Origin: Bacteroidales bacterium
Lineage (GTDB): Bacteria; Bacteroidota; Bacteroidia; Bacteroidales; GCA-2748055
Assembly (NCBI GenBank): GCA_029210585.1
Contig: JARGFP010000015.1
Location: forward strand, 1-64,000
Reading direction: 5' to 3'
Length of the DNA: 64,000 bases
In this document: in pieces, positions 23,289 through 47,690 of the stretch
Layout: every line of letters starts with the position of its first letter
How positions within the stretch are numbered: position 1 is the first letter of the stretch
Program-made: the position numbers and the translations under genes
Notes under the pieces: model-generated
The model's database searches: none
What the model saw: the letters and a program-made list of their open reading frames with translations, nothing else
What the model was told of the DNA's origin: nothing

Positions 23289-24344
23289 TTAATTCCCGGT
23301 GCCTGAAGGAACCTCAAGTTTGGTATTAACCGAATAGGGTTCTCCGAAAACCGGGACACCATCCTCGTCCCATGAAAATTCCTGCGCACGCATGCTTCTG
23401 CCGGCACATTCATTGCTTGAAGCCCGCTTTGCATGATACACGATCCAGTCCTCTTCCAGGTCAGGGGATTTGGTAAAACAATTATGACCGGGACCATATA
23501 CACTGCTGTCGGGATTCTGACCAAACACCTGCAGCCGGGAGCGCGACCATGAGGCGGGATCCAGCAAATCGGCATCCTTTTGTGCAGAAAACATCCCCAA
23601 TCCATAATTGTCATCCCAGCAGGCACCTGCAGAATAGATGATAAAGATTTGATCCCCCGGGCCTTCAAGGAATTGGGGACCTTCAAGGATTTCCCGCGGC
23701 GGTGTCTTTTCCCAGTCATAAATGGGCAATCCCAGGACCACCTCATTTTCTATTTCCGCAGGGGCTGTCATTTTTGACAGTATGATTCCGCTCTGGTTGC
23801 CGATGTAAGGAGAGTATGCAAAATAACGTGTGCCTTTATATTCAAACACGTTCCCGTCGATACCCGGGTATTTGGTATCCACCTTTCCAAGCTCTTCCCA
23901 GGAATCATCGAAGGGATTCTCCGATGTGTTTTGCATTACGTGCACATAGCGGTGCTGATCATCGCCAAATGCAGCATCTGTGGCGGAATAATAGATATAC
24001 CAGGTATCATCAAAATAATGAATTTCCGGGGCCCAGATACAGCAGGAATTGCTTCCGGTAGCAGGCATGGTCCAGATCACCTTATTCTCCCCTGCCTCCA
24101 GGTCTGTAAAGGAAACCGATCTCCATAACTGCAACCTGTCTTGTCTTGTCACCATGGTGTAATAGAGGCCATCGGTATGGAGATATACATATGGATCTGC
24201 CCCTTGTTCAAGGATCGGATTTGTAAAATAGGCCTTATCTGCATTGCTGTTTCCGGCATCATTATTCTCACTATTCTGTTTTCCACAGGCCAGCAGCAGA
24301 ATTGTCATTGCAGCCAACACCCATATTTTTATTACTAATTTCAT
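23289..24344 (-). CDS. GH43 family glycoside hydrolase, lipoprotein
   Basis: 351 aa. MKLVIKIWVLAAMTILLLACGKQ lipobox; YFTNPILEQGADPYVYLHTDGLYYTMVT; CIWAPEIHYFDDTWYIYYSA; EGPQFLEGPGDQIFIIYSA. Confidence 0.88.
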   Translation of the reverse strand: MKLVIKIWVLAAMTILLLACGKQNSENNDAGNSNADKAYFTNPILEQGADPYVYLHTDGLYYTMVTRQDRLQLWRSVSFTDLEAGENKVIWTMPATGSNSCCIWAPEIHYFDDTWYIYYSATDAAFGDDQHRYVHVMQNTSENPFDDSWEELGKVDTKYPGIDGNVFEYKGTRYFAYSPYIGNQSGIILSKMTAPAEIENEVVLGLPIYDWEKTPPREILEGPQFLEGPGDQIFIIYSAGACWDDNYGLGMFSAQKDADLLDPASWSRSRLQVFGQNPDSSVYGPGHNCFTKSPDLEEDWIVYHAKRASSNECAGRSMRAQEFSWDEDGVPVFGEPYSVNTKLEVPSGTGN

Positions 24345-24372
24345 GCTTCCTTTGTTTTTTTATTTACAGATT

Positions 24373-25425
24373 CTATTCTTCTATGCCAACCGGCAACTGC
24401 GATGCTTTACCAAAATGATCCACCAGCCTCTTATACTCATCCATCGAGATTGTAATCATACAACCGTGCCTGACTGTAGGTGGCATGGAATACTTATCCC
24501 AGGTGCTGAAAAAGGTATACCCTGAAATCTTGTACCACGGACCTTCCGGGTTCCTGGCAACTGAAAGTCCATAGGATATACCAGGGTATTGTTCATAGTA
24601 CATGTACCAGAATGTATCGTCCGGCGAAGGAATGATCATGGGCGCTTCATTGAAATTCGGACTGACGGGGTCGCCCGGATAAGAATAAGGTCCAAGCAGG
24701 GAACCGGTGCTACCAATCCTGATGGTCTTGCCGGTTACCCATTCCGGGGTCGGATACCGCTCATCTTTTACAATCGCGTAATACGTGTCATCTATCTTCC
24801 TGATGATTACATCGATTGTCGCCATGTCCCATTCGAAAAGGCGACGGGGAAATGCTGAAAATTCCACCAGGTCCTTCGATGTTACATACAATGTCCGCTG
24901 GCTGGCCCAGTATTTTTCCGGGTCCTCTTCATCCCAGTCATGGGGAGTATGCCAGGTCATTACATATGTCTCCGAATCCTGATCATAGAACAGTTTCGGG
25001 GCACCTATCCTGGGAAGTGCATGTTCATATCCAGGGGTCTTTTGCAGATCTGGTGTGTAGTCTGAATGATGTTCCCAGGTGACCAGGTCTTCGGAGACCC
25101 AGATGTTGATATCCGGCGCAGCATCATTTTTATTGCCGGCGATATAATATCGCCCGTCGTGCCCCTTGCAGATATCCGGGTGACCCCTGTAAGCATCAAA
25201 CACCCGCTCGCCGTCATTGAGAAGTTCCCAATGCAAGCCATCCAGGCTCACCGTGTAATATAATTTACCATAATCGGCATGTGTCATATGTGCAAAAAGA
25301 TAGGCCTCATGTACAGGCGCTCCTTCTTTTACTTGTCCGGGCGGATCGGGTTGTTGGGCACAGGCCGCGCTGTTCCAAATGATTAACATTATCACAGCTG
25401 CAATGGTTGTTTTTAAATTTTTCAT
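24373..25425 (-). CDS. GH43-like five-bladed beta-propeller glycoside hydrolase
   Basis: Start moved from 25551 to 25425 (MKNLKTTIAAVIMLIIWNSAACAQ signal). YYTVSLDGLHWELLNDGERVFDAYRGHPDICKGHDGRYYIAGNK; NEAPMIIPSPDDTFWYMYYEQY. Confidence 0.72.
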   Translation of the reverse strand: MKNLKTTIAAVIMLIIWNSAACAQQPDPPGQVKEGAPVHEAYLFAHMTHADYGKLYYTVSLDGLHWELLNDGERVFDAYRGHPDICKGHDGRYYIAGNKNDAAPDINIWVSEDLVTWEHHSDYTPDLQKTPGYEHALPRIGAPKLFYDQDSETYVMTWHTPHDWDEEDPEKYWASQRTLYVTSKDLVEFSAFPRRLFEWDMATIDVIIRKIDDTYYAIVKDERYPTPEWVTGKTIRIGSTGSLLGPYSYPGDPVSPNFNEAPMIIPSPDDTFWYMYYEQYPGISYGLSVARNPEGPWYKISGYTFFSTWDKYSMPPTVRHGCMITISMDEYKRLVDHFGKASQLPVGIEE

Positions 25426-25595
25426 AATCATCATATTTAATATCCCATCGGTTTTAATGTGCAGGATCCTGTGCATAAACAGACCACAGCTGCAGCACGT
25501 AATCCCCAGCTGGTTCCCGCAGCCAAAACAAATCTCTCCTGGTTGACACACCCATGCAAAACTGAGAAGTTGGCCGGTGAGCGACGGTCGTTTGC

Positions 25596-26696
25596 CTATT
25601 GCTTCCCTGTCAACTCCTTGATCAGTTCGATCTCTTCCGGGTCAAAAGCAGAACCATCGGGCCTGAAAATATCATGGAACCAGACCTCAGGTTCCGATCC
25701 ATCCGGCATAGGGGTATCCCAGGCATACATCGTATTGGATTTTCCTGCCACCAGGCCCCAGTTGATTGCCCCGACTTTTTCCTCCTTCAACATCGGCATG
25801 ATATTTTCAAACCGGCTGCTCCTTGTTCGTGCCATATATTCCGTGCATATCAGCGGACGTCCGAATAACTTCAATGAATCGATGGCTCCCTGATGGTCTG
25901 CCCTGTCAGCATAATTGTGGTACGTTATAATATCCGAGTTATCAAGCTGGAATTCATTCAGACCTTTCAGGCTGTTATTCCAAACACCAACTGAAACTGG
26001 TTGGGAAGGGTTGATTTCCCTTGCCCACCTGAACACATTTTTCAACAGGGGCATGCTTCTATTGCCGAGTCCGTTATTACCTGGTTCATTATACAAATCC
26101 CACATCATAATCCTATTGTCATCGGCAAAAGTTGACATCACATCTTTCACGTAGATCTCCAGTGTATCCATAAGCTGGGGCTCCCTGAAAATACGGTCAC
26201 CGGGATCCCTCACCCAACCCGAATTATGTATCCCGGGTTTCGGATCAGGCTGAGGCCCTGTCTCGTAAGCTGCATTCCAGCAGTCGTCGAAAAACACAAA
26301 CATGGTTTTGATCCCGTGCAGATCGGCAATGGTCAGGTACTCGTCCATACGGGATTTAAATCCTTCCCTGTCCACCTGCCAGGCAAGATGGTGCAGGTAC
26401 ACACGCATACAGTTGAACCCTATATCCTCAGCCCATCCCAGTTCCCTGTCAATCGTCACAGGAACGAAGGATGCCTCCTGCCAGGTTTCCAATTGGTTGA
26501 TGGCAGTACTTGGATTGAAATTAGCACCCCGGTACCATGGGTGTTGATTTCCCCATTCGCGGGCCTGTTCAACCGTCCATTTACCGGCGATAACGGTCCC
26601 CGATTCCTGGTCTGGTGTCTTTGGGCTATTACAGGCTACAACACCAATCAACAAGAGTGTTGGAATTAACGATGAAAGCCGGAGTAAATTCTTCAT
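25596..26696 (-). CDS. GH5-like (clan GH-A) glycoside hydrolase, lipoprotein
   Basis: 366 aa. LLLIGVVACNS lipobox; GFNCMRVYLHHLAWQVD; RIMMWDLYNEPGNNG (acid/base); RPLICTEYMARTR (nucleophile). Confidence 0.8.
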   Translation of the reverse strand: MKNLLRLSSLIPTLLLIGVVACNSPKTPDQESGTVIAGKWTVEQAREWGNQHPWYRGANFNPSTAINQLETWQEASFVPVTIDRELGWAEDIGFNCMRVYLHHLAWQVDREGFKSRMDEYLTIADLHGIKTMFVFFDDCWNAAYETGPQPDPKPGIHNSGWVRDPGDRIFREPQLMDTLEIYVKDVMSTFADDNRIMMWDLYNEPGNNGLGNRSMPLLKNVFRWAREINPSQPVSVGVWNNSLKGLNEFQLDNSDIITYHNYADRADHQGAIDSLKLFGRPLICTEYMARTRSSRFENIMPMLKEEKVGAINWGLVAGKSNTMYAWDTPMPDGSEPEVWFHDIFRPDGSAFDPEEIELIKELTGKQ

Positions 26697-26717
26697 GTCT
26701 GTCTTTATTTTAAAATG

Positions 26718-29444
26718 TTATTGTAATATTATTTTCCTGGTGATGTTACGGTCCTTTTGCTCAACCTGCAGCACGTAGATTCCGGGCGACAGGCCATGCA
26801 GATCATATTCCTGTTCCTGACCTAAAGCCATCATTGTAAATTGCAGTCTGCCATTCATATCCCTGATCGAAACTTTTCTTACTGCTTCATTGCTGAATGA
26901 GAGATGGATTTTGTTGTGTGCCGGGTTCGGATAAATACTGAAATTTTCCTCAGAAGCGACCTGGGATCCGGACCTGGCAGAGGTGGTCAGAAGTTCTGAA
27001 GTTACCCTGAAGTTGTCAAACAGAACCCCGGTATTAAAGGACCGCATTCCTGCCATTCCGTTAATAAACGGGAATGTATCGGTATAATCAATGATGGGTG
27101 TTGTCATGTCATCTACAAAAACCCTGATACGGTCATCATTGACCACCACTCTCAAATGGTACCACGTATTCATTTCAGTGGAAACAGATGCGGTGGTAAG
27201 GGATTCCCACCCATAATTATGTTTTCCCAGCACGATACTTCCAAAATTGAAGCCACAGAAATAGCCCTGCAAAAAATCTGTTCCAAGTGCCGGGTCGTTC
27301 CCGGCCCCGCCCAGTGCCGGATTTTTCACCCTGAAGATCAGTCCTGCATTCATGCTCCTAGTGAACCGGATGTCTGTATCAACCGTATAATCCCTCCACG
27401 CTTCACTGCCATGGGTTCTTTTTCCAAAGCCATCGATGGTAGCATGCCCATCGATGATCCGCCACTCCCCGTCGTCATACTTCCATCCTGCCCCGAAAGC
27501 ACCATCAAAAGTAAATATATTGCTGAAGGGTGCATTGTCTGATGCTACGAATTCAAATGCATAGAGATCAATCGTCCCGTTATCCACCTGTACTTTCAAT
27601 GTGTGAAATCCCTTACCTATGTCGATATCTTTTACAAGGAAGGGTTTCCAGGAACCTCCTGTAGAGGGAAGTTCAATTTCTCCCGAAACATCTGAATCAT
27701 CCATAAAGAAGCGAACCCTGGCAGCATCACTCCCAGACCTGTAAATAACACGGACATTGTAGGTTCCGGATGATTCTACATTCACATTGTAGCTGAACCA
27801 GTCATTTGCCCCGACAGATGCCAGTGCCAGTCCGCCAAGCTCAGAGCCGGTCAGTTCCACTTCATCACTTCGTACCTGGAAGAAGATGTTTTCATTTCCT
27901 GATTCCTTGTGGAAACCCTGACCTTCACCGCCCTGGTTATATTGAATTGCAGGAATCTTCCCGGGAACCGGCTTATGGACATCAAATGTACCCGATCCAT
28001 TAACATGGTTACTGAAGGCAATGAATCCAAATTCACCCGCTGCATACTGGGTTGCATAGCCTATTTTTCCTCCCCCGGTGGCTTTGGTAACGGACAGCTG
28101 CTTCATCCCATCGATATAGAAACGAAGCGTGTCCATAAATTTTTCTAATCGAAGCGTATGCCAATGATCAAATTGTAGTTGCTCCGGCAATGCTGCGTAT
28201 TGTGGTACTCCCCATGTATTATTTTCCTTAAATGTAATGATCAATTGGTTGGAATAACTATTGATCATTGCCAGACCGTAATTGGAGGCATCCTGGTAGC
28301 TGAAGAGAGCACCCAGGGCAGAGAACTCATTTTCCCGGGCTGTCTCCCTGAAATTGAATTCTGCCGTGTAATTATTCTCAGATACACTGTCAAGGACAGC
28401 CAGCATGACCTCTTCATTTTCATGTACCATAAGATCCTGTCTGATGACTCCGGGTTCACTGATCACCCAGTTTCCACCTGCCGGGAAGAGCCAATGATTC
28501 CCGGGGCTTTCTCCAGGGAAATAATCGCATGCATCGGGAAGCGCCGGATTTTCCTGTGCATAATCGGTAGGACCAAGAACGACCAGTTGCTCATCATTCC
28601 ATACAATCCGGTCAAAATTAAGTCTTCGGAAGGGGCCGATACCGGAAACCAGGTTATGATAGGTAAGAAAATAACTGTCCAGGTCAGGACCGATAAAAAC
28701 GCTTCCGTGTCCAAGCCCGGTATGCAACCCCAGTGCATCAAGAAGAATTGGATTCTGTGACTCAGCGGGTTCATATGTGCTGATAGGACCCTGCGTATTT
28801 GTGGCATAGTCGATCCGGTATCCTTTGCTGATTACGTGGTTCCCGGTATAGATCATATAATACCGGTTATTTCTTTTAAAAACACAGGGACCTTCTGTCC
28901 AGCGATTGTTCATAACAGCCCCCGTATTGACCCCTGCACCAATGCTGGTCGGGTCAGGCATGGGACATCCAATGATGCCTGCCGGAGAAGCATGGTAGAA
29001 ATACCAGGATCCGTCATCTTCAATAAATACGGAACCATCGATGCTCTTCCCCAGGTTCCCCGTAACAGGTTCGAACGGACCTGTTGGAGACGGAGCCGAC
29101 AACACATAATGCCCGTTACCGGCTGGGGATGTGTACATGTAAAAAGTGCCATTCCAATAGAATACTTCAGGTGCATACGCACCTTTTGTTACCGGATCAG
29201 TAGAACACAATCCCTCATATCTCCAATCCACAAGGTCAGTTGAACTCCAGGTTTTGACACCTGTTTCACTGTCTTTTGTACTGCAGTACAGGTAAAAAAC
29301 ACCCCGGTGCTTGAGTACATATGGATCCCCGATTGAATAACCGGCCCATTCATTATCAAGGGTATAGGGATTATCCATTTCCTGGGAAAGAAGATTACCG
29401 GAAATTGAAATAAGTAATGATATCAACAGGAAATGTAATCGCAT
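26718..29444 (-). CDS. GH43 glycoside hydrolase with CBM6-like and C-terminal LamG-like domain, T9SS C-terminal domain
   Basis: 908 aa. SIGDPYVLKHRGVFYLYCSTKD, KGAYAPEVFYWNGTFYMYTSPA, RWTEGPCVFKRNNRYYMIYTGN; IQYNQGGEGQGFHKES...SGTYNVRVIYRSGSDAARVRFFMDD (CBM6-like); C-term IYPNPAHNKIHLSF. Confidence 0.87.
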   Translation of the reverse strand: MRLHFLLISLLISISGNLLSQEMDNPYTLDNEWAGYSIGDPYVLKHRGVFYLYCSTKDSETGVKTWSSTDLVDWRYEGLCSTDPVTKGAYAPEVFYWNGTFYMYTSPAGNGHYVLSAPSPTGPFEPVTGNLGKSIDGSVFIEDDGSWYFYHASPAGIIGCPMPDPTSIGAGVNTGAVMNNRWTEGPCVFKRNNRYYMIYTGNHVISKGYRIDYATNTQGPISTYEPAESQNPILLDALGLHTGLGHGSVFIGPDLDSYFLTYHNLVSGIGPFRRLNFDRIVWNDEQLVVLGPTDYAQENPALPDACDYFPGESPGNHWLFPAGGNWVISEPGVIRQDLMVHENEEVMLAVLDSVSENNYTAEFNFRETARENEFSALGALFSYQDASNYGLAMINSYSNQLIITFKENNTWGVPQYAALPEQLQFDHWHTLRLEKFMDTLRFYIDGMKQLSVTKATGGGKIGYATQYAAGEFGFIAFSNHVNGSGTFDVHKPVPGKIPAIQYNQGGEGQGFHKESGNENIFFQVRSDEVELTGSELGGLALASVGANDWFSYNVNVESSGTYNVRVIYRSGSDAARVRFFMDDSDVSGEIELPSTGGSWKPFLVKDIDIGKGFHTLKVQVDNGTIDLYAFEFVASDNAPFSNIFTFDGAFGAGWKYDDGEWRIIDGHATIDGFGKRTHGSEAWRDYTVDTDIRFTRSMNAGLIFRVKNPALGGAGNDPALGTDFLQGYFCGFNFGSIVLGKHNYGWESLTTASVSTEMNTWYHLRVVVNDDRIRVFVDDMTTPIIDYTDTFPFINGMAGMRSFNTGVLFDNFRVTSELLTTSARSGSQVASEENFSIYPNPAHNKIHLSFSNEAVRKVSIRDMNGRLQFTMMALGQEQEYDLHGLSPGIYVLQVEQKDRNITRKIILQ

Positions 29445-29472
29445 AGTCAGTTATACTAAAAAGCAAAAGGAT

Positions 29473-29510
29473 TTAAAAAAAATAGAGGGTGCGGGTCCAC
29501 ACCCTCTATT
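29473..29510 (-). terminator. Rho-independent terminator after the susC-susD-LamG unit
   Basis: Reverse strand AATAGAGGGTG-TGGACCCG-CACCCTCTATTTTTTTT. Perfect 11-bp stem (29481-29491 with 29500-29510) followed by a T-tract; lies between the LamG gene stop (29532) and the next start (29444). Confidence 0.88.
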
Positions 29511-29531
29511 TGAGTAATCAACCAACTCTAT

Positions 29532-30479
29532 CTATCTGATGAAAACTTTCGTTGCATGATTTACATCTGATCCCTGGACCCTCACGATATAGATTCCAGT
29601 GTCAAATGAAAGTTTACCCAGTTCATCCAATGGTTTTTGCCCGACCAGTGCACCGGTAAGGTTATACACAGAGACCACCTCATCCTGGCGTGGCTGGTCC
29701 AGCTCTACCCTGATCTTATTATGGTATGCGTACACGGAGGGCGCTTTTTTACCAGAAACTTCTTTATTCACTCCAACCTGCCATCCACTTACGGTTTCAT
29801 CGTATAGTTGCAGTACTGCTGCTTCATCGAGTGCAGTTTCATACACGCGGAAATCACTCATGGCACCTTTCCACAATGGATCAGGCCAGAAGCTTTTACC
29901 CAAAGCATTCTCAGAGTCGTTTAACGTCCCGAAAGACCTGGCAAAACCACTTTCTGCAAATACTTTCTGATTGTTGTGATATAAGATAATTGAATCAGGT
30001 TTTAGCACAACTGCGGAAAAATACCAGGTATCCAACTGAATATCTACTATCTCCTGCGGCATATCAATATCGTACCACACAGTACCGGGATTAGAGAGTG
30101 TGAATCGGTACATGTCCTGGTTTCCGCTGACAGGAATCACCATCATTACGTCTTTGGGTTCACTCTGGTCCCCCTCACCAATCGAATAAACCCTGGACCA
30201 TACTCTTGATTCATCCATGCGGAACCAGCATGTCACCGTAATTTCGGTCATGTTGCTTCCCGCAATAAATGACGGAAGGTTGGCATAACTTTCTCCATCA
30301 AAGTAAGCCACTGGACCACGCGTTACATCATCTTGAAAAATCACCCCATTGTTGGTCCCATTAAGACTGCCGGCGACATCGTTAAGATCGGCCTTCAGCG
30401 GCCAGTGATGCACCTGAGCGTTCACACTGAACACCAGGAAAAATGCAATAGATGCACTAAGGAATAAATGTTTCTTCAT
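29532..30479 (-). CDS. LamG/concanavalin A-like secreted protein with T9SS C-terminal domain, in the usual surface-glycan-binding-protein position
   Basis: 315 aa. MKKHLFLSASIAFFLVFSVNAQ; VHHWPLKADLNDVAGSLNGTNNGV...PVAYFDGESYANLPSFIAGSNMTEITVTCWFRMDE; C-term GIYIVRVQGSDVNHATKVFIR. Confidence 0.8.
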   Translation of the reverse strand: MKKHLFLSASIAFFLVFSVNAQVHHWPLKADLNDVAGSLNGTNNGVIFQDDVTRGPVAYFDGESYANLPSFIAGSNMTEITVTCWFRMDESRVWSRVYSIGEGDQSEPKDVMMVIPVSGNQDMYRFTLSNPGTVWYDIDMPQEIVDIQLDTWYFSAVVLKPDSIILYHNNQKVFAESGFARSFGTLNDSENALGKSFWPDPLWKGAMSDFRVYETALDEAAVLQLYDETVSGWQVGVNKEVSGKKAPSVYAYHNKIRVELDQPRQDEVVSVYNLTGALVGQKPLDELGKLSFDTGIYIVRVQGSDVNHATKVFIR

Positions 30480-30532: not shown

Positions 30533-32146
30533 TTAATAGTCAGGGTTTTGGTCAAGATTCGGATTGTTGTCTACTTCAAACTGTGGCAGTGGGAGGATAT
30601 GGTGCTTTCCCAGTTCGAAATTTTCAAAATCCGGATCACGCGCAATGAGTTCGTCAATACCAGCCTGTGTCTCAAGCAAACCCCATCTTCTAAGGTCGAT
30701 CCACCTGACGGACTCCAGGCTTAGTTCAAGGGCGCGTTCCATCTGTAGGCGCTTCAGAAAGGCCTCTTTTGAATTGACACTGGCGGCAATTTCCGGCACG
30801 GTGCTGTTTTCAAGTGCAGGCAAGTTAGTACTTGGGCGCTGCCGCACCATATCCACATATCCGATCGCAGCAGGCAGTTGATCCAGTTCCTCCAGGCATT
30901 CTGCATAGCAGAGCAGTATATCGGCATACCGGATCACCCTGTAATTAATCGGTGAATAATAATCGGTACGTGCCTTGAAATAGTCGTCACCGTATTTCCT
31001 GAAGAAGGAATCACCGAACCAGTTGAATCTCCATTTGGTAATGGTGCCTGCAAATAGTGTTTCATTGGGAAAATCCTCAAAAATTTCCGGATAAATAATA
31101 CTAACTCTGAGTCGGTCATCTATGGTTGTACCGTTTACTGAATTATTCAGGGTTGGTTCACGCTTGTATTCTTCAACAAGCCATGGACGGGGCTGCCCGT
31201 CGCTCCAGCCGATCCCTTTCGGGGCAAAGAACTGTGAACGGGTATTCCCAAGTGCCATTTCCGGAACATTATCATCCACATCTGATCCATTGTTGCGATC
31301 CATCTCTGTTTCATTCACATCCGAAAACTGGATCTCGAAGACCGATTCCATATTGTTCTCATTCAGGTGGGTAAAATTGTCAAAGTAATTGTCCATCAGC
31401 CCATAATAAACGGCACCCTCTCCTTCCACGAGCCATTCAAACGCATCCCTGGCTTGCTGCCACATGTGTCGCTGCATGTATACTTTCCCAAGCAAAGCGT
31501 AAGCTGCGCCTTTGGTGATCCTTCCTTTATCTGAACCAGTCCACTCTTCGGGCAGGCCTGCAATGGCTGCCTCGAGATCCGGAATAATGATTTCATCATA
31601 GATATAATTGGGGTCCCCTACCTCATAGTTGTCTCCGGCACTTGAAGGTTCAGTCACAATCGGGAGATTTTCAAACAGGACCAGCAGGTTGAAGTAATCA
31701 AATGCCCTGATGAATTTCGCTTGTGCCACGATCATATCGAGGGCCTCCTGTTCCTGCTCATTTTCACCCACAATATCGGGGACATACGCAATGACCTGGT
31801 TACACTGGAAGATCTGCTTATAATGACCCTTGAAAATCGTATGCCCCCCCTGGATAAAATTGTAATTGGTATAATTGAAATGGGTCCAGTCAGCCAATTC
31901 ACTCCACGGACTTGCACTATACGCCATGTCTGAAGTAAGGTCGTACCTGAAATAGATCCAGCGCGACCAGTTCCCCACCCTGGTGAACTGACTATACACT
32001 GCAGTAAGACCCATTTGTGCATCATCCAGGGTTTTCCAGAAGGTTGCCTCTGTGGGCACATTCGGATTCTCGACATCCAGGATGTCTTCACTACAGGCCA
32101 TGAGGCCTGCAATTAAAACTGTTAATAGGATAATCTTTTTTATCAT
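30533..32146 (-). CDS. susD: SusD/RagB-family outer membrane lipoprotein
   Basis: 537 aa. MIKKIILLTVLIAGLMACSEDILDVENPNVPTEATFWKT; RYADILLCYAECLEELDQLPAAIGYVDMVRQR; C-term LPLPQFEVDNNPNLDQNPDY. Confidence 0.96.
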   Translation of the reverse strand: MIKKIILLTVLIAGLMACSEDILDVENPNVPTEATFWKTLDDAQMGLTAVYSQFTRVGNWSRWIYFRYDLTSDMAYSASPWSELADWTHFNYTNYNFIQGGHTIFKGHYKQIFQCNQVIAYVPDIVGENEQEQEALDMIVAQAKFIRAFDYFNLLVLFENLPIVTEPSSAGDNYEVGDPNYIYDEIIIPDLEAAIAGLPEEWTGSDKGRITKGAAYALLGKVYMQRHMWQQARDAFEWLVEGEGAVYYGLMDNYFDNFTHLNENNMESVFEIQFSDVNETEMDRNNGSDVDDNVPEMALGNTRSQFFAPKGIGWSDGQPRPWLVEEYKREPTLNNSVNGTTIDDRLRVSIIYPEIFEDFPNETLFAGTITKWRFNWFGDSFFRKYGDDYFKARTDYYSPINYRVIRYADILLCYAECLEELDQLPAAIGYVDMVRQRPSTNLPALENSTVPEIAASVNSKEAFLKRLQMERALELSLESVRWIDLRRWGLLETQAGIDELIARDPDFENFELGKHHILPLPQFEVDNNPNLDQNPDY

Positions 32147-32158
32147 GATGGCAGATTT

Positions 32159-35146
32159 TTAAAAGTTGGCACTGATTGAGAACATATAAATTCGTGGCGA
32201 AGGATAGGAATTCCCATCCACACCAAACTGCAGCAGTGATCCATTGTTGAATTCAGGATCCAGTCCCTGGTACCTGGTAAAAGTGACCGGGTTCTGCACA
32301 TTTACCGACAGTCTCAAATCGTTAATATAATCCTGAATGGGATCAATGTTGAAGGTATATCCAAGCGTGATCTGTCGGATCTTGAAGAAGGATCCGTCTT
32401 CAAGCCACCTGTCAATCCAACCCACCGAGTTACGCTCGTCGGCATACAGTACCCGTGGAAAATCAGTGTCGGTATTGTCCGGCGTCCAGGGGTCGATGCC
32501 ATAGCGGTAATTTGAATTATCGTTGAACCGTTCTGTCAGGGAACGAGTACCATTATACACCGTAGGTCCGAACGCTCCAAATCCATGCATAGAGAAATCC
32601 CAGTTTCGGTATGCAATGTCCATCGTTAGTCCAGCCTCAAGTTTGGGCCAGGGATTCCCCAATACCTGACGGTCACCCGCTGCCGAGATAATACCATTGT
32701 CATCATAATCCACATAGCGAAGATCACCGGGTTGAGCATTGGGTTGTATTACCGTACCTTCTGAATTGACGTGCGCGAGTACCTCCTCTTCAGACTGGAA
32801 GATGCCGTCAGATTCCACAAGGTAGAACATGGCCATCGGGCTCCCTACCTCGGAAATAGTTGCACCGCTCAGTATCCGGCTGTCCCCGTATGGCAGGTCC
32901 AGGACTTCATTCTTGATGGTTGTAAAGTTGGCCGAGATCGTATAGCGGAGATCTCCCCTGTATTCACGCCAGCTAAGGTCTACATCTACACCGCTGTTTT
33001 TCAAACTGCCAGCATTCACCCAGGGGTTGCCGCCGTCATTGCCCGTAGCAATAAGTATCGGGAAGGCAACCAATACATCCTCCGTTACTGAAATATAATA
33101 ATCTGCAGACATTTGCAGTCTGTTCCCCAGGAATCCCATATCTGCACCAATATTGGTCTGTTTCTTGGTCTCCCAGGTAAGGTCTTCGTTGACCAGTTCT
33201 CGCTGTATCGCCCCATTCAGGACAACTTCATCCGATCCTGTTCCGAATACGGCCAATGGAAAGGTAGTTAATGAGGGAATATAGTCGTACCGGCCGCCAA
33301 AGGCACTATTACCCAAGACTCCGTAACTTGCCCTGATCTTCAGGTTATCCAACCAGGGAACCTCAAAGAAATCTTCCTCAGTGATCCTCCATGCACCGGA
33401 CACAGATGGGAAGTAACCTATTCTGTAACCGGGTCCGAACTGCGATGATCCGTCGCGCCTCACTGTGGCGCTGAAAAGGTACTTGCCGGAAAAATCATAT
33501 TGAAGCCTTCCAAAATAAGAAATCCGGTAGAGCTCATTCATAAACCCGCCAGTGGTTGGGTTATCGCTTCCGGCATCCAGCACCCGGAGGTATTCACCAC
33601 CGGCGATAAAGATATTTTGTTTCCTTCCCCAGATTTGCTCATAGTTTTCATTCTGGTAACTTGAACCGAGTACGATATTCACAGCATGATTACCAAAATC
33701 TTTATTGAATGTTAAGAGATTATCCAGTATAAATGACTGGTATCTTGCTTTGTTTTCATAAATATGCGAAGGTTCATAGGGAAGGTTCAGTGTGAAATCG
33801 CCTTCTTTTCTCAGTTGCTTGAAAGCATCAAAGCTGGTTTCATACCCTGCGCTCAGGCGGTAGGCCAGAAACTCAAACAGCTTCAATTCTCCAAACACAT
33901 TTCCACGCAACCTGGCATTCTCCTGGCTTTGCTGCACCAGACCCTGGATGGCAATCGGGTTGGTCCCGAAAGTTCTCGCCCTTGCTTCATCCCCAAAACC
34001 ATAACCACCGAAGTTGGCAGAGTCATATACGGGGATATCAGGCGTCATTCTCATTACATCGGTGATCGGATTGCCTCCGCTGTAAGGCACCACCAGGGTA
34101 TTGGTGATGGCAAAGTTTTCTCCAACTGTAAGAATGCCTTTGGTCGCCTCGGTGTTGACGCGGATACTGTACCGTTCCAGGCTGGTACCCTTTGTTGTCC
34201 CCTCATTTTTAAAGTAATTGGCAGAAACCAGGTACCGGCTTGTTTCCGAACCTCCCGAAACACCTATATTATAGTCACTGCTAAAACCAGTCTGAAATAC
34301 TTCCTCTTCCCAGTCCGTACTGTTGTCAAAATGGTTCTGGGGAGTCATGCGGGCATTTTCATATGCCATATCGTTGTAATAGAAAAAATCGGCAGTGTCC
34401 ATCAGGTTCAGTGAGGGAAGTTTTTCGATGCCGAATTTTGCAGAGAAATCGATTGCAGGTGTGCCAGCCTGTCCCTTTTTGGTCGTAATGATAATCACCC
34501 CATTTGCTGCCCTGTTGCCATAAATGGCCGCAGCGGATGCATCTTTCAGAATCTGCACCGACTCAATATCATTTACATTGAGGTCGCGCATTCCCCCGGT
34601 AAAGATGAGTCCGTCGACCACATAAAGCGGGTTGGTATTGCTGATGTTACCGATTCCCCGGATTTTAATGTTAGGCTCAGCCCCTATGTTTCCATTTGAC
34701 CTCACCCGCACCCCGGAAGCAAGTCCCTGGATGGCCTCGCCGAAAGAGGTAGTCTGCACATTCCGGAAACCATCGGTATTCACAACGGAAACAGCACCTG
34801 TCAGGTCCTTTTTCTTTACAGTACCATAACCAATGACCACAATCTCTTCCATGGAAGCAATGTCCAGTTGAAGTATAGCGTTGATCGTGGTTCTTCCCTC
34901 AACAGGTATCTCTTCGGTCAGGTACCCAATATAGGAGAAGATAAGTACTGCATCACTACTTGCAACCTCGATGGAATAATTTCCTTCAGAGTCGGTCACA
35001 GTACCATTCGAGGTCCCCTTCTCAACGATATTGACCCCGGGCAATGCCCTTCCGTTTTCATCGGTCACTTTCCCGCCAACTGAATGCTGGGCAGAAAGCA
35101 ATCCAAAAGAAAACAAAAGAAAAGTAAATAGTAATTTTGATTTCAT
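32159..35146 (-). CDS. susC: SusC/RagA-family TonB-linked outer membrane receptor
   Basis: Start moved from 35203 to 35146 (MKSKLLFTFLLFSFGLLSAQ). GGKVTDENGRALPGVNIVEKGTSNGTVTDSEGNYSI; EEIVVIGYGTVKKKDLTGAVSVV; PLYVVDGLIFTGGMRDLNVNDIESVQILKDASAAAIYGNRAANGVIIITTKKG. Confidence 0.97.
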   Translation of the reverse strand: MKSKLLFTFLLFSFGLLSAQHSVGGKVTDENGRALPGVNIVEKGTSNGTVTDSEGNYSIEVASSDAVLIFSYIGYLTEEIPVEGRTTINAILQLDIASMEEIVVIGYGTVKKKDLTGAVSVVNTDGFRNVQTTSFGEAIQGLASGVRVRSNGNIGAEPNIKIRGIGNISNTNPLYVVDGLIFTGGMRDLNVNDIESVQILKDASAAAIYGNRAANGVIIITTKKGQAGTPAIDFSAKFGIEKLPSLNLMDTADFFYYNDMAYENARMTPQNHFDNSTDWEEEVFQTGFSSDYNIGVSGGSETSRYLVSANYFKNEGTTKGTSLERYSIRVNTEATKGILTVGENFAITNTLVVPYSGGNPITDVMRMTPDIPVYDSANFGGYGFGDEARARTFGTNPIAIQGLVQQSQENARLRGNVFGELKLFEFLAYRLSAGYETSFDAFKQLRKEGDFTLNLPYEPSHIYENKARYQSFILDNLLTFNKDFGNHAVNIVLGSSYQNENYEQIWGRKQNIFIAGGEYLRVLDAGSDNPTTGGFMNELYRISYFGRLQYDFSGKYLFSATVRRDGSSQFGPGYRIGYFPSVSGAWRITEEDFFEVPWLDNLKIRASYGVLGNSAFGGRYDYIPSLTTFPLAVFGTGSDEVVLNGAIQRELVNEDLTWETKKQTNIGADMGFLGNRLQMSADYYISVTEDVLVAFPILIATGNDGGNPWVNAGSLKNSGVDVDLSWREYRGDLRYTISANFTTIKNEVLDLPYGDSRILSGATISEVGSPMAMFYLVESDGIFQSEEEVLAHVNSEGTVIQPNAQPGDLRYVDYDDNGIISAAGDRQVLGNPWPKLEAGLTMDIAYRNWDFSMHGFGAFGPTVYNGTRSLTERFNDNSNYRYGIDPWTPDNTDTDFPRVLYADERNSVGWIDRWLEDGSFFKIRQITLGYTFNIDPIQDYINDLRLSVNVQNPVTFTRYQGLDPEFNNGSLLQFGVDGNSYPSPRIYMFSISANF

Positions 35147-35217
35147 AGCAAGCATAGTTTTAGTTATCGTTTGAATGAATGACAAGTTACAGTCGAACTT
35201 CATCTGAATATTGGAGT

Positions 35218-35317
35218 ATTGTTCATATTTATGGTAAAATTGTTCATAAACGGCTCACAGCTTACATTTTTATCCGGTGGGTACCTGCGGTTGTTCTAAA
35301 ACCATGTACTTTTGTTC
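35218..35317. promoter_or_regulatory. Candidate HTCS operator region: two TTGTTC pairs, each with 21-bp spacing
   Basis: ATTGTTCATA at 35218-35227 and 35239-35248; TTGTTC at 35291-35296 and 35312-35317. Lies in the divergent susC / HTCS intergenic region. Confidence 0.6.
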
Positions 35318-35373
35318 AATTCATCCTTGTCAATTGTAAAAAACCGGTCAGTGACTCATGAAGTGTATTATAT

Positions 35374-38300
35374 TTGTCGAGGAGTGATTCAATTAACTGC
35401 CAACGGTTGATGCGTGGTATCCAATACATAACCAAGACATTACAGCTTGTGTCTATGCGCATGCTGCATCTCCTTATTGCTTTGTCTGTATGCCATACAA
35501 TCCACGGTCAGACCAACACCCCTCCTGTAACATTGCAATTTGAGCAGGTCACTTCCATCCAGGGGTTATCCAACAATACGGTTCTGGACATCACACAGGA
35601 TGCTGAAAGCTTTATATGGTTTGCCACCCGGGAGGGGTTGAATAAGTTTGACGGGCAGGTCATTACCAGCTACTATAAAACTGAAAACGCAGCCATCCCC
35701 GGAAATTTCATTGAAAAACTGCTGATCACCTCTCACGAGCAGATGATCATCGGCACACAGAAGGGTGTATCTGTCTATCACAAGGAGACCGACTCCTTTT
35801 CACAGATTCTTTTTAAGGGCAAATCCATTGGTAATACCACCCAGATCATAGAACTGCATACGGGTGAACTGCTTCTCTCCAGCTTTCAGGGACTTTTTAT
35901 CATTGGACAGGACCTGGCACCTGTCAGAATCAGCAACATTCCTTACCGGGATATCTGTGAATTCAGAAATGGCATTATCTGGGGCCTTTACGAAGATGAG
36001 ATTATCATCATGAACATGGAGGGAGAGATCATCAGAAGATACTCAAATGACAATAAAAACCTGGGGTCATTTGACTTTTCTTCCGCAAATATTGAATGCT
36101 TTTTTAAGGACTCCAAAAACAATTTGTGGCTGGGTACAAAAAGAAACGGAATTGGCTATTATGACCAGCAGAACGACAAATTTTATCATCTGCAGATCCA
36201 CCAGGGTGTCAATCCTATCGAAGACAACTTCGTCAGGGTCATCAATGAAGATATGCTGGGACGCCTCTGGATAGGAACCGAATCCGGACTCTACATCTAC
36301 GATGTGCAGAAAGAGCAATTCTCATTCTACGGACAGTCCTTTGATGAGCTTGAAAAAGGGCTGAACGACAAAGCGATCTATTCCATCTTTCGTTCAAATG
36401 ACAACCTGATGTGGATCGGCACCTATTTCGGTGGCGTAAATTATACCAGCCTCACTCCAAACGGCTTTAACAGGATCTATGCAGATGGCGGGGAAAACAG
36501 GCTCAGTGGCAATGCGGTCAGTGAGATCATCGAGGCAGCAGATGGTAAGATATGGATAGGTACCGAGGATGGGGGGATCAGTATCCTGGATCCGCACGAC
36601 AGGACTTTCAGTTACCTGAAGCATATTCCGGGAGATGCAGGGTCTCTCTCTTCCAACAATGTGCATGCCCTGGAACAGGATGCGCAGGGGAGGATCTGGA
36701 TCGGAACATTTCTCGGAGGACTGAACAGGTACGATCCTGCAACAGGGAAATTTGAGTTGTTCGAGCTGATTCCGCGACAGGACAATATGCAGGAGGATGT
36801 CTATAACAAATCGGTCTTTTCGGTCTGTATCGATTCAAAGGGCCGGACATGGGCCGGATCGATAGGTGGTTTGTATATGCGGGAAAAAGAGGGTCAAGAT
36901 TTTAAACTCTGGAATCCGGCTCTCTTCGAATACAACTTCATCTATCATATTGAAGAGGATGCCTACGGCATTATCTGGGCTGCCACTTACGAGGAGGGAA
37001 TCTACAGGATCAATCCCGACAATTCCGTTAACAATTACCGGACAGACAACAAACACAACATATTGAGCAACAGGATCGTCTATATCCTTCCTGCTGACAA
37101 GGAAAACATCTGGTTCGGAACTGTCGATGGTGGACTGGTACGGTATTCTTATGCTTCAGGCATGTTTACCTCTTTTACAACTGACAACGGATTGCCGAAC
37201 AATACGGTCTATGCAATCACGAAAGATGAAAATGACCATCTTTGGCTAAGTACCAACAGGGGAATCTCCAAATTCAAGGTACAATCAGAAACATTTGTGA
37301 ATTATTCCGAAAACGATGGACTGATCGGCAACCAGTTCAACTTTAAATCAGGACTGAAAACCTCATCGGGCACCATCTATTTCGGGGCAGTAAACGGACT
37401 TACCTTTTTCGATCCGGAAAACATCCGGAACAATGACCTTCATCCCGTAATCCACTTAACAGATCTCAAAATCTTTAATAATTCCGTACCTATCGGCGAA
37501 GAGAGCATCCTGAGCAGCCACATTAATTTCCAGGATGAGATCAGTCTGAAATACAGCAACAAGGTCTTTTCTATTGACTTCGTGGCGCTCAATTATATCT
37601 CTCCGAAAAATGTCCGGTACGCCTATTATCTCGAAGGACTCGAGGAGGACTGGAATTATGTGGGAAACAAGCAAACTGCCAGCTATACGAACCTCTCGCC
37701 CGGCAGTTACACATTCCACCTGAAAGCCGCCTGCGGAAGTGATTTCACCACCACAACTGAACGCACCCTCGGTATAGATATCCGACCCCCTTTCTACATG
37801 TCGGTCTGGGGATATATGCTCTTTGGAGTACTCCTGGTCGGCACCACGCTCCTCATCATACGCTTCTATTCGATCCGCCAGAGGGACAAAATGAATGTAC
37901 GGATCGCCCGCCTCGAATCAGAAAAAAACGAAGAGATCAGTCAGCACCGCCTGAATTTCTTCACCTATATCAGTCATGAGTTCAAGACACCGCTCACCCT
38001 CATCATCGCCACGCTCGAGCATATCATGAACTACGAAAATGTCCTGCCACGGTTCAAAGACTACAGCCTGCTCATGCGAAAAAATGCCATGAGGCTGCTC
38101 TTCCTTATCAACCAGCTGATGGACTTCAGGAAGATCGAAACAGATCATGCATCACTAAGCTATAACAAAGGGGAAATCATCGCCTTCCTCAAATCCACCT
38201 TCATGGCCTTCAAGCCATTGATGCAAAAGCAACTGATCAAGTCGGCTTTCACATCGAATGTCGATTCGTACATTGTCTATTTTGAGGCTGATAAACTGGA

Positions 38301-39543
38301 GAAGATACTGGCCAACCTAATCAGCAACTCATGCAAATCGTTCAAAAAACCAGGAACGATCGCCATGGATGTGAAAATTACAGAGCGTACACACCTTGCC
38401 AATCCTGCTGCTGAAGCAACGCGATCGGGCGATTTGATCATCACCATCATAGATGACGGACCAGGAATGCCCAAGGAAAAACTGGAACATATCTACAAAC
38501 CTTTCATCTCTGCAGATCCTTCAGATTTTTACAGCAGCGGTATTGGTCTGTCACTTGTGAACAGCCTGGTAAAATACCTCAACGGAAAGATCAATATTAC
38601 ATCTTCATCCGAAAAAGGCACCTCTGTTGTTATCCAGCTTCCCCTGGTACATGATCCTGACCCCGGACTGATCAAAAGCGACACCTTCATCGAAAACAAT
38701 GTCTCTTTTGATCCTGAAGCCACACCACTTTTTACCAATTCGGAAGAGGAGATCACCTTTGATTTTCAGGACAACGGTACTGTCAAGGAATATGGGATGC
38801 TGATCGTAGAAGACAACAATGAGCTCGCCTCTTTCCTCCAGCACCATTTTGCCCCTGTCTTCAATGTGCAAATCGCTTATGACGGTGAACAAGCCTATAA
38901 AAAGATCCGTAAAAACCATCCCGACCTGGTCATCAGCGATATCATGATGCCCCGCATGGATGGGTATGCCCTCTGCAGTGCCATAAAGGATTCGGTTGAG
39001 ACCAGCCATATACCCGTCATCCTGCTCACGTCAAAAACAAGGAATGAAGCACGGCAGGAAGGATTCTTCAAAGGAGCCGATGCCTATGTTGGCAAGCCAT
39101 TTAACCTGAGGGAACTGGACCTCCAGGTACGAAATATCCTACGCTTCAGGGAGAATCTGAGGAATCATTTCGCCTCCTTCGGAGAACTGGAAGAGAATGT
39201 CACTACCCTGGGAAACAAAGACCAGATGCTTATCAAATCCCTGACCGCCACCGTACACAAGCACCTCGACAATGGATCCTTCGATGTGGACATGTTCTGC
39301 AAAGAGACCAATCTGAGCCGCACACTGCTGCATATGAAACTAAAAAAAATTACAGGTCTCAGTGCCACCGGGTTCATTAAGAACATCCGTCTGAATGAGG
39401 CACGGAAGATGCTGCAGGAGCACAACCTCACCGTCGCCGAGATCTCATACCGGGTCGGCTACAACGATCCTGCCTACTTCAGTAAAACCTTCAAGAAGTT
39501 CTTCGGAAAATCTCCATCAGAGATTCATGACAACAACGGCTGA
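35374..39543 (+). CDS. Hybrid two-component system (HTCS), divergent from susC
   Basis: 1389 aa; start may be 35455 (MRMLHLLIALSVCHTIHGQ). Propeller repeats; NFFTYISHEFKTPLTLIIATLEH; LVISDIMMPRMDGYAL; AraC HTH (VAEISYRVGYNDPAYFSKTFKKFFGKSPSEI). Confidence 0.95.
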   Translation: MSRSDSINCQRLMRGIQYITKTLQLVSMRMLHLLIALSVCHTIHGQTNTPPVTLQFEQVTSIQGLSNNTVLDITQDAESFIWFATREGLNKFDGQVITSYYKTENAAIPGNFIEKLLITSHEQMIIGTQKGVSVYHKETDSFSQILFKGKSIGNTTQIIELHTGELLLSSFQGLFIIGQDLAPVRISNIPYRDICEFRNGIIWGLYEDEIIIMNMEGEIIRRYSNDNKNLGSFDFSSANIECFFKDSKNNLWLGTKRNGIGYYDQQNDKFYHLQIHQGVNPIEDNFVRVINEDMLGRLWIGTESGLYIYDVQKEQFSFYGQSFDELEKGLNDKAIYSIFRSNDNLMWIGTYFGGVNYTSLTPNGFNRIYADGGENRLSGNAVSEIIEAADGKIWIGTEDGGISILDPHDRTFSYLKHIPGDAGSLSSNNVHALEQDAQGRIWIGTFLGGLNRYDPATGKFELFELIPRQDNMQEDVYNKSVFSVCIDSKGRTWAGSIGGLYMREKEGQDFKLWNPALFEYNFIYHIEEDAYGIIWAATYEEGIYRINPDNSVNNYRTDNKHNILSNRIVYILPADKENIWFGTVDGGLVRYSYASGMFTSFTTDNGLPNNTVYAITKDENDHLWLSTNRGISKFKVQSETFVNYSENDGLIGNQFNFKSGLKTSSGTIYFGAVNGLTFFDPENIRNNDLHPVIHLTDLKIFNNSVPIGEESILSSHINFQDEISLKYSNKVFSIDFVALNYISPKNVRYAYYLEGLEEDWNYVGNKQTASYTNLSPGSYTFHLKAACGSDFTTTTERTLGIDIRPPFYMSVWGYMLFGVLLVGTTLLIIRFYSIRQRDKMNVRIARLESEKNEEISQHRLNFFTYISHEFKTPLTLIIATLEHIMNYENVLPRFKDYSLLMRKNAMRLLFLINQLMDFRKIETDHASLSYNKGEIIAFLKSTFMAFKPLMQKQLIKSAFTSNVDSYIVYFEADKLEKILANLISNSCKSFKKPGTIAMDVKITERTHLANPAAEATRSGDLIITIIDDGPGMPKEKLEHIYKPFISADPSDFYSSGIGLSLVNSLVKYLNGKINITSSSEKGTSVVIQLPLVHDPDPGLIKSDTFIENNVSFDPEATPLFTNSEEEITFDFQDNGTVKEYGMLIVEDNNELASFLQHHFAPVFNVQIAYDGEQAYKKIRKNHPDLVISDIMMPRMDGYALCSAIKDSVETSHIPVILLTSKTRNEARQEGFFKGADAYVGKPFNLRELDLQVRNILRFRENLRNHFASFGELEENVTTLGNKDQMLIKSLTATVHKHLDNGSFDVDMFCKETNLSRTLLHMKLKKITGLSATGFIKNIRLNEARKMLQEHNLTVAEISYRVGYNDPAYFSKTFKKFFGKSPSEIHDNNG

Positions 39544-40788: not shown

Positions 40789-41340
40789 TTATTTTTGTAA
40801 TGCTTCCCTGATGTAATAAATAATTTTCCAGCGGTCCTCCTGCGAGATCATGGCACCATGCGCCCCCATCACACCGTACCCGACCGTGATGGAATGATAG
40901 ATCTCCCCATCTGCCAGTTGCCGGACCTTTTCATTGACCAGGCTTGCCGGGGGAAAGGGATAACGTCCCGAAGTATAGAGAAACCCCAGGCCATCTCCTT
41001 TTTCACCATGACAATTAAGGCAGAACACATTGTATGCATCTTTCCCTGCTTCCATGCTGGCCTGGCTGAATGGTACCGGGTTGGTCAGCTCCTTTCCGGC
41101 CAGGATCCTGTCCTCATCGGTCTTTTCATAGGGAAATGGAATCATTCCCCTGGGTACCGTTCCTTCCACGGGGGTCCGCATGGTCATACCGTTATCAAAA
41201 TTCTCATTGGGGCTATAGGTCTCATAGGCCTCTGAATAATACATATCCGGCATGTAATCCCATCCTGTACTGGTCCGGGTCCGGTCACAGGACGCGATTA
41301 CCAGCAGTGTCAGACTAATCGTGATGATGTTGAACTTCAT
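40789..41340 (-). CDS. actE: Alternative complex III subunit ActE, monoheme cytochrome c lipoprotein
   Basis: MKFNIITISLTLLVIASCDRTR lipobox; single CLNCH heme motif (DAYNVFCLNCHGEKGDGLG); TVGYGVMGAHGAMISQEDRWKIIYYIREAL. Confidence 0.92.
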   Translation of the reverse strand: MKFNIITISLTLLVIASCDRTRTSTGWDYMPDMYYSEAYETYSPNENFDNGMTMRTPVEGTVPRGMIPFPYEKTDEDRILAGKELTNPVPFSQASMEAGKDAYNVFCLNCHGEKGDGLGFLYTSGRYPFPPASLVNEKVRQLADGEIYHSITVGYGVMGAHGAMISQEDRWKIIYYIREALQK

Positions 41341-41457
41341 ATATAAAAAATCTTTCATATCTGGTAAATAATTGTTTCAACGTTCGCTAAAACTGCAGGC
41401 CTTTTGTCGTCCCGCTTATCCTGTTTCCGTTCGAGACCATTTTAATCAACCGTGGTT

Positions 41458-41991
41458 TTAAACGATTGGTGTTTCACTGTCCTGCTTTTCAATAATCTCA
41501 ACGGCACCCAGGTCTTTAAGTAACTGCTTTACCTTTTCCGCATCCACCTTTTCAGTATCAAACATGATCACGAATTTGTCGTCGGTCGCACCCTCGTGGC
41601 AGACCGGTTTCCCCACATTGGGCCAGATCCTGGCACGTGCCGAAAAGGTGAAGAGGCTGAGTATGGTAACGCTGAAAATTGTAAGAATAAGTGTGATCAC
41701 GATAAAAGAGGGAAATGCACTGCTGGGCTTGCCCCCGTAATTCAGCGGCCAGTCGATTACGGCTGTATAGTACAGGAATGCAAGCACGGCAGCTGCAGCA
41801 AAGAATCCATAAAACCATGAAACGGTAATGATCCGCGTCTTTTTTCCATGATTTTCAAGCACTTCATGTATCGGGAAAGGCGTAAAGACATCCGAGATCT
41901 CCACGTTTTCCTGTTTAAATTTTCTGAATGCCTGCACCAGCGGTTCCTCGCCGTCAAAAACACCCAGTAGTCGCTTTTTATCGTCCTCCAT
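41458..41991 (-). CDS. actD: Alternative complex III subunit ActD (DUF3341)
   Basis: 177 aa, LLGVFDGEEPLVQAFRKFKQENVEISDVFTPFPIHEV, two TM segments, position between actC and actE. Confidence 0.92.
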   Translation of the reverse strand: MEDDKKRLLGVFDGEEPLVQAFRKFKQENVEISDVFTPFPIHEVLENHGKKTRIITVSWFYGFFAAAAVLAFLYYTAVIDWPLNYGGKPSSAFPSFIVITLILTIFSVTILSLFTFSARARIWPNVGKPVCHEGATDDKFVIMFDTEKVDAEKVKQLLKDLGAVEIIEKQDSETPIV

Positions 41992-41993
41992 TG

Positions 41994-43355
41994 CTATTTC
42001 TTTTTATCAGTCTTTAACTTGTTGACCATTTTTACTTCATGGATCGCAATCATCGGTATGTACTTGAAGAAAAGGAGTACACCGAACGCGAAAATCCCAA
42101 GGGTACCCAGGAACACCGCGATCTCCACGAATGTGGGTGAGTAATCGGCCCATGCAGAAGGAAGGTAATCCTTTGCAAGCGAGGTAATGACAATATTAAA
42201 CCGTTCAAACCACATCCCCAGGTTGATGAGTATCGATATAACGAACACAATTTTGATGTTGTGCCTGATCTTTTTGAACCACATCAGCTGCGGGATCAGC
42301 GCATTACAGATGAACATGATCCAGAACTGGACGGTATATTCCCCCGTGATCCTGTTCCTGAATAAGGTGAACATCTCATACTCATTGGCTGAATACCACG
42401 CGATAAAGATCTCAGTAAGGTAGGCAGTTCCCATGATCAGGGAAACGAAAACGAGGATCTTGGCCACATTGTCGAGGTGCCTGTTGGTAATGTAATCATG
42501 CAACTTGTAAATTTTCCTGATAATCACCATCAGGGTCATCACCATGGCAAAACCGGAAAAGATCGCCCCCACTACAAAATAGGGTGGAAACAGCGTGGTA
42601 TGCCAGCCAGGCTCCACCGAGACAGCAAAGTCGGTGGAAACGATTGAGTGTACCGACACCACGAGTACGGCTGCTATTCCTCCCAGGACAAATGCGAGGC
42701 CCTCGTATCTTTTCCATTCTCCGACCGAACCTCTCCAACCCATGGCAAAGAAACCATAGACTGCTTTTTTGACCTTCGATTTGGTGGTATCCCTGATGGT
42801 GGCAAAGTCGGGAATCATGCCAAGGAACCAGAATGAGGCTGAGATCAGTAAATAGGCAGTAATCGCAATGAAGTCCCAGAACAGTGGTGAGTTATAGTTT
42901 ACCCAGAGTGGTCCGCGTGTATTGGGATAGGGAAAAATAAAAAACGCGTCCCAGACCCTGCCCATATGCAGTGCCGGGAAGATGGCCGCACAGCCCACTG
43001 CGACCACGGTCATTGCCTCGGCTGCCCGGTTGATGGACGAGCGCCATTCCTGGCGCAGAATCAGCAAAAAGATCGAAAATGCCGTCCCGGCATGACCGAT
43101 CCCGATCCACCACACGAAATTGATGATGGCCCAGCCCCAGCCTACCGTGTTGTTGACTCCCCAGGTTCCTATACCTGTAGCTATGGTAACATAGATCCCC
43201 CAGAATCCCAGCAGCATCAGTATTGAACTGATCCCCATGCCGACCAGCCACCACATTTTGGGTCGCTGGTAAATGGGCGATGTGATCTCCTCGGATATCT
43301 GTCCCAGGGTCTTGTTCCCCAGGATAAGCGGTCCTCTGATTTCGGTTTTGTACAT
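41994..43355 (-). CDS. actC: Alternative complex III subunit ActC (NrfD/PsrC family)
   Basis: 453 aa polytopic; NNTVGWGWAIINFVWWIGIGHAGTAFS typical of the NrfD/PsrC family; operon position. Confidence 0.93.
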   Translation of the reverse strand: MYKTEIRGPLILGNKTLGQISEEITSPIYQRPKMWWLVGMGISSILMLLGFWGIYVTIATGIGTWGVNNTVGWGWAIINFVWWIGIGHAGTAFSIFLLILRQEWRSSINRAAEAMTVVAVGCAAIFPALHMGRVWDAFFIFPYPNTRGPLWVNYNSPLFWDFIAITAYLLISASFWFLGMIPDFATIRDTTKSKVKKAVYGFFAMGWRGSVGEWKRYEGLAFVLGGIAAVLVVSVHSIVSTDFAVSVEPGWHTTLFPPYFVVGAIFSGFAMVMTLMVIIRKIYKLHDYITNRHLDNVAKILVFVSLIMGTAYLTEIFIAWYSANEYEMFTLFRNRITGEYTVQFWIMFICNALIPQLMWFKKIRHNIKIVFVISILINLGMWFERFNIVITSLAKDYLPSAWADYSPTFVEIAVFLGTLGIFAFGVLLFFKYIPMIAIHEVKMVNKLKTDKKK

Positions 43356-43436
43356 TCTATCCTATTTTACTTTATAAGTGCCTGTCCGTAAAATCAACAC
43401 TATTTCCAGCCACTTTACATTGTTATCGGTCTCTTA

Positions 43437-46418: not shown

Positions 46419-46490
46419 CCTAATAAATTGTATACAGATTAGTATTGTTTAATTTGCTGAACATGCATATCGAGGACCATTCATCACGAA

Positions 46491-47690
46491 TCAGTAATGA
46501 CATTTTGAGCATTCTGCACCCCCGACCTGTTCGGCAGTAACCCGGCTGATTTCTCCCGACTTCATCGCCCTGTGCAACTCCTCGTATTTCTCGTAGAATG
46601 CGTTGTCGAAGAACTGCACCTCCGTGTCGCGATGACAATTGATGCACCATCCCATGGACAGGTCGGAAACCTGCCTTACGCGGTGCATCTCCTCAACCGG
46701 ACCATGACAGGTCTGGCAATCGATTCCAACCACTTCCACGTGCTGGGCATGACTGAAAAATACATGGTCCTGAAGGTTATGTACCCGGATCCATTCGATG
46801 GATTCATTGTTTTCATGTGCGCTGACCACCTTGCTGATTTCGTGCATTCCGGAATGGGTCCCGTCGCGCACGATGATATGACAATTCATGCAGAGGTCTA
46901 CTTCGGGGAATCCTGCCGATTTGCTTTGCCCCACGGTATGGTGACAATACTTACAGTCAATCTGGTTATCGGTCACATGCACCATGTGCGAGAATTTGAT
47001 CGGCTGATCAGGCTCATAGTTTTCCTGGCGTCCAAGGGAGATGCCCGCATCCAGCAGCAGGATGACCTGCCATCCAAGTGCTCCTGAAAATAGTACGCCC
47101 AGTATCCATTTCCGCTTCACCTTTTTCAGAAAAACCACCTCGATAACGATCCAGGTCAGCAAGACACCAAGCAGCAGGAAGAGCAATATTTTATTGATTA
47201 CCGGCTTGCGCTTCGTGAGGCCCTGCTCCTCAAAATGATCCAGGAATTCCTTAACCAGGGCGACCTCCGCCTCATTCAGGCTGAATGATTCATGTACTTC
47301 TGACATGGTGCGCCCGGTAGGGTTCATGACTGCCCTGGTAAATTCCTCAATGGATCTCTCCTTGTATTTGTGGGCGATCTCCCATGCATTGGGATTCCAG
47401 TTGAACGTGTCAATTTCCATCGTATTATGGCAATCTGCACAGGCGTTTCCTTCAAATTTCCCTTCCACCAGTCCATAAAACAATCTTTCTCCACGCTTTA
47501 CGCCCTGGGAGTAGCTGTCGTGCTTTTTATCACTGTCGCCGGCATCATCTTCAGCCGTGGCATGCACAAATGGAAAAAAGAACAGGAATAACAACAAGGT
47601 AATAAGGGTTTGGAACCCCGGTCTTGGACTACATGAAGGCTGCTTTTGGGCAAAGGCATGACCTTCATGTTGCTGACAGGTCTTTGTCAT
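46491..47690 (-). CDS. actA: Alternative complex III subunit ActA, multiheme cytochrome c
   Basis: 399 aa. Six CXXCH motifs: CADCH, CKYCH, CMNCH, CQTCH, CINCH, CSKCH; first gene of the act operon. Confidence 0.92.
   Translation of the reverse strand: MTKTCQQHEGHAFAQKQPSCSPRPGFQTLITLLLFLFFFPFVHATAEDDAGDSDKKHDSYSQGVKRGERLFYGLVEGKFEGNACADCHNTMEIDTFNWNPNAWEIAHKYKERSIEEFTRAVMNPTGRTMSEVHESFSLNEAEVALVKEFLDHFEEQGLTKRKPVINKILLFLLLGVLLTWIVIEVVFLKKVKRKWILGVLFSGALGWQVILLLDAGISLGRQENYEPDQPIKFSHMVHVTDNQIDCKYCHHTVGQSKSAGFPEVDLCMNCHIIVRDGTHSGMHEISKVVSAHENNESIEWIRVHNLQDHVFFSHAQHVEVVGIDCQTCHGPVEEMHRVRQVSDLSMGWCINCHRDTEVQFFDNAFYEKYEELHRAMKSGEISRVTAEQVGGAECSKCHY

Follow-up and report, generated by a model that had tools for sequence, protein, structure and literature searches.

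The intergenic region between a SusC-like transporter gene and a divergently oriented HTCS gene carries four copies of the hexamer TTGTTC, and the question raised by this locus is whether these repeats form an operator and, if so, which regulator and which genes they serve. Analyses were carried out on the window (the whole 64,000-nucleotide stretch of DNA, whose coordinates are used throughout), on the genome from which it derives, and on an orthologous locus.

Gene starts, promoter boxes and repeats

The HTCS (35410..39543, + strand) combines in one chain a periplasmic propeller sensor (two-component regulator propellers, Y_Y_Y), HisKA and HATPase kinase domains, a receiver (REC) bearing the S/CHIP motif as SHIP, and an AraC-type HTH; the motif reads CHIP in the ortholog from genome G007 described below. 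Encoded on the opposite strand are the SusC-like TonB-dependent transporter (32159..35146, -), a SusD-like lipoprotein (30533..32146, -) and the rest of the predicted target operon (23289..30479, -), comprising a LamG protein, a GH43 with a CBM35/CBM6-like module, a GH5-like protein and two GH43. At its far end, this run of glycan-related genes includes a second HTCS (1497-5672, -), which is 32% identical to the first and has CBM96, GH2 and CotH-type secreted proteins as neighbors. Directly behind the first HTCS is an alternative complex III cluster (40789-47690, -; ActD, NrfD, an Fe-S/molybdopterin-like subunit and a multihaem cytochrome c), and further along is a 404-aa protein with a match to the GldL N-terminal domain (52297-53511, -), which is longer than expected for GldL.

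The start of susC was set at 35146 (MKSKLLF..., signal peptide), and the ORF start at 35203 was not used. For the HTCS, the sequence-only reading had given a start at 35374, which was discarded because it falls inside the conserved promoter element TATATTTG (35369..35376, + strand). This element agrees at every position with TAnnTTTG, the consensus of the Bacteroidota -7 box (PMC7366714), and is predicted to serve the HTCS promoter as its -7 box. Since TATATTTG stands at a like distance from the likely start in both genomes (41 bp here, with ATG at 35410, and 39 bp in G007, with TTG at L010:1456), the HTCS most likely begins at ATG 35410, the next in-frame ATG (35455) being a possible start. 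With both starts corrected in this way, the intergenic region spans 35147-35409 (about 262 bp). A weak -7-like element for susC, TAACTTGT (35182..35189, - strand), is located at -43 from the ATG and has a counterpart, TATTTTTC, at -44 in G007. Another full TAnnTTTG match, TACTTTTG (35307..35314, + strand), overlaps the last TTGTTC and is a possible alternative HTCS promoter.

Copies of TTGTTC were located at 35219, 35240, 35291 and 35312; all four lie on the + strand, upstream of the susC/susD operon that adjoins the HTCS gene. They form two pairs of like half-sites in direct orientation, each with a period of exactly 21 bp: a proximal pair (35219..35245), which on the susC strand reads as GAACAA with half-sites at -99/-78 relative to the susC start, and a distal pair (35291..35317). 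The proximal pair is embedded in a 10-bp exact direct repeat, ATTGTTCATA, at 35218-35227 and 35239-35248. The sequence-only reading had thus described the repeats correctly, including the exact repeat at 35218 and 35239, the copies at 35291 and 35312, and the period and orientation shared by both pairs.

Chance expectation was assessed using 3000 dinucleotide shuffles of the 262-bp intergenic region, with equal-spacing pairs counted at 12-45 bp. Two pairs of some 6-mer with the same spacing arose in 1/3000 shuffles and a 10-bp exact direct repeat in 21/3000, and the expected count of TTGTTC-N15-TTGTTC per shuffled region was 0.0003. Exact matches to this pattern in the window were limited to the two pairs, and with one mismatch there were 4 (0.45 expected). 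The genome scan that had been proposed for the pattern returned 8 exact matches (4.6 Mb, both strands) vs 3 for a reversed control. Given these shuffle results and the few exact matches in window and genome, the repeats are real and not easily produced by chance.

Conservation at the orthologous locus

Among about 1000 genomes searched, G007, which belongs to the same family but to another genus, held the sole complete close ortholog. Close HTCS relatives were present in G330 and G013, where the loci are cut off at contig edges; order- and class-level ortholog searches yielded no complete locus beyond G007, and genome contigs scanned with the HTCS returned remote kinases only. In the HTCS alignment the row for the second HTCS was out of frame and was left out, and the G013 row looks chimeric at its start. 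The G007 HTCS is 64% identical to that of the window and the susC N-terminus 76% identical; the HTCS is divergent from the orthologous susC, and synteny extends over seven genes. Gene sizes follow in the same order (window/G007, in aa): susD 536/537, LamG 311/315, GH43 910/908, GH5-like 367/366, and the last two GH43 of the operon 378/392 and 349/351.

The G007 intergenic region contains TTGTTCAGAAACGTAGTATTATTGTTC, an exact TTGTTC-N15-TTGTTC in the same orientation, with half-sites at -100/-79 from the susC ATG on the susC strand vs -99/-78 in the window. A match to this pattern is expected by chance in this region at 5e-5 per shuffle. Ungapped identity between the two intergenic regions is 65% over the site, 43% over the susC-side flank and 24% over the HTCS-side flank. 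The comparison of orthologous intergenic regions, which had been suggested as a check, therefore came out in favor of the proximal pair, kept in this one ortholog in sequence, spacing, orientation and position, and against the distal pair, which was not kept. At loci of SusC relatives sharing about 50% identity or less the exact pair was absent, as expected if other regulators act there; a tally of repeat periods made on these loci disregarded strand and was left out.

The distal pair and alternative readings

The only other TTGTTC in the G007 intergenic region (L010:1422) sits within the TATATTTG box and has no partner at 21 bp, which means that G007 does not conserve the distal pair as such. 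Reading this lone copy as a half-site was considered and dropped, since it belongs to the -7 box. As the distal pair is not kept in G007, the earlier suggestion that two sets of repeats might give bidirectional control is unproven and finds no support here. The distal pair is nevertheless too regular for chance, and it is probably a second, lineage-specific copy of the operator; a role as second operator acting perhaps on the HTCS gene itself, as a putative auxiliary or autoregulatory site, is possible but unproven.

The alternative that survives best, and which we regard as a genuine though lesser possibility, is that the distal pair is no operator, TACTTTTG at 35307 being a -7 box that happens to precede TC and the copy at 35291 its chance partner. 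TAnnTTTG followed by TTC easily makes TTGTTC, as it does in G007 (L010:1417-1427), and the pair is missing from that genome; against this stand the exact 21-bp period of the distal pair and its spacer GTA (see below), the expectation of 0.0003 given above for an exact TTGTTC pair, and the better fit of the conserved HTCS -7 box to 35369 by distance to the start. A more elaborate proposal, which appears improbable to us, is that HTCS dimers bound at two in-phase sites separated by 72 bp would act together, the proximal one activating susC and the distal one, overlapping the TAnnTTTG box on the HTCS strand, repressing or tuning the HTCS gene itself; if true, a membrane-bound regulator would here show autoregulation or looping in the manner of AraC.

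The trinucleotide GTA is found at spacer positions 10-12 of the proximal, distal and G007 pairs alike. The extended pattern TTGTTC-N9-GTA-N3-TTGTTC has exactly one match in the G007 genome, at the orthologous locus, and 3 in the genome of the window, namely the proximal and distal pairs and a third inside an ORF. Because GTA was spotted on these same sequences, the cleaner test is the TTGTTC-N15-TTGTTC pattern formulated beforehand in the sequence-only reading. As the extended pattern is intergenic at this locus only in each genome, the predicted regulon looks like a single operon.

These counts also bear on the proposal that the pairs serve another regulator, whether another protein of the AraC type, the HTCS at 1497-5672 or a global carbon regulator. 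The sequence by itself does not name the protein, and this genome encodes about a dozen HTCS genes; still, in two genera the site accompanies this HTCS-susC pair, the second HTCS shares just 32% identity with the first, and a global regulator is unlikely because the extended pattern occurs at no other intergenic place in either genome, so that we give this proposal little credence. Chance repetition can be put aside almost entirely, for while AT-rich intergenic DNA commonly has short repeats, the shuffle tests argue against it, as does the fact that the proximal pair is independently conserved at a matching distance from susC.

Upstream regions of 20 other HTCS genes from the two genomes (one containing masked N) showed no clear peak of 21-bp repeats in a simple self-comparison, in which degenerate half-sites could hide an excess. 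Upstream of another HTCS (L048; G000:C22, about position 2785), a repeat formed by TGAAATTATCC and TGAAATCATCC with a 20-bp period was observed and is a possible operator of that HTCS.

The predicted operator and its relation to known systems

The TTGTTC pairs are thus very probably docking sites, predicted from sequence, for the sensor-regulator encoded next door. Taken as a whole, we consider it highly likely that the adjacent HTCS uses the proximal pair (35219-35245) as its operator and that the susC operon is activated from this site, with the distal pair probably being an additional copy. The earlier assignment of the repeats to an AraC-type HTH dimer of this HTCS is supported for the proximal pair, which is conserved in G007 and has the published HTCS geometry, in a setting where the HTCS contains both a REC and an AraC-type HTH domain; for two sets as a conserved feature the comparison with G007 gave no support. 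We infer that the periplasmic propeller domain would sense a glycan, upon which the fused kinase would phosphorylate the receiver domain and free the AraC-type DNA-binding domains. These would then dock head-to-tail as a dimer, one subunit per TTGTTC and two helical turns apart, about 30 bp upstream of the weak -7-like element, leading to transcription of susC, susD and the downstream hydrolase genes. The site also supplies short DNA probes for binding and possible autoregulation.

In Escherichia coli, AraC occupies araI1-I2, head-to-tail half-sites about 21 bp apart that lie upstream of the activated promoter and are divergent from the regulator gene. The window pairs resemble this arrangement in their head-to-tail spacing of about 21 bp, their location upstream of the promoter predicted to be activated and the divergent regulator gene; they differ from it in that the HTCS is a membrane-bound phosphorelay protein and that no distant looping operator is shown here.

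The closest parallels are in Bacteroides. In Ravcheev et al. (2013; PMC3878776), direct-repeat motifs were predicted for 16 Bacteroides HTCSs, with an average of 21 bp between tandem sites, and were read as dimer sites in which the two monomers occupy the same face of the DNA at a distance of two helical turns. In published EMSAs, HTCS fragments comprising the receiver and DNA-binding domains bound the promoters of the susC homologs at the loci to which these HTCSs belong (PMC11253607). Like the operators of HTCS_Man, HTCS_Rgu-1, HTCS_Rgu-2 and HTCS_Hep, as described in PMC3878776, the site is a direct repeat of about 21 bp upstream of a susC/D operon, here one predicted to be controlled by the adjacent HTCS; unlike them, the intergenic region here has a second pair, and the likeness is one of geometry. 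Since such control sites have already been described in Bacteroides, the finding is real but ordinary, and the predicted operator is a clean fresh example of an already known HTCS site type. It extends the operator-geometry rule predicted in Bacteroides to a genome outside the Bacteroides set, and adds an unusually exact, position-conserved example together with a testable second site.
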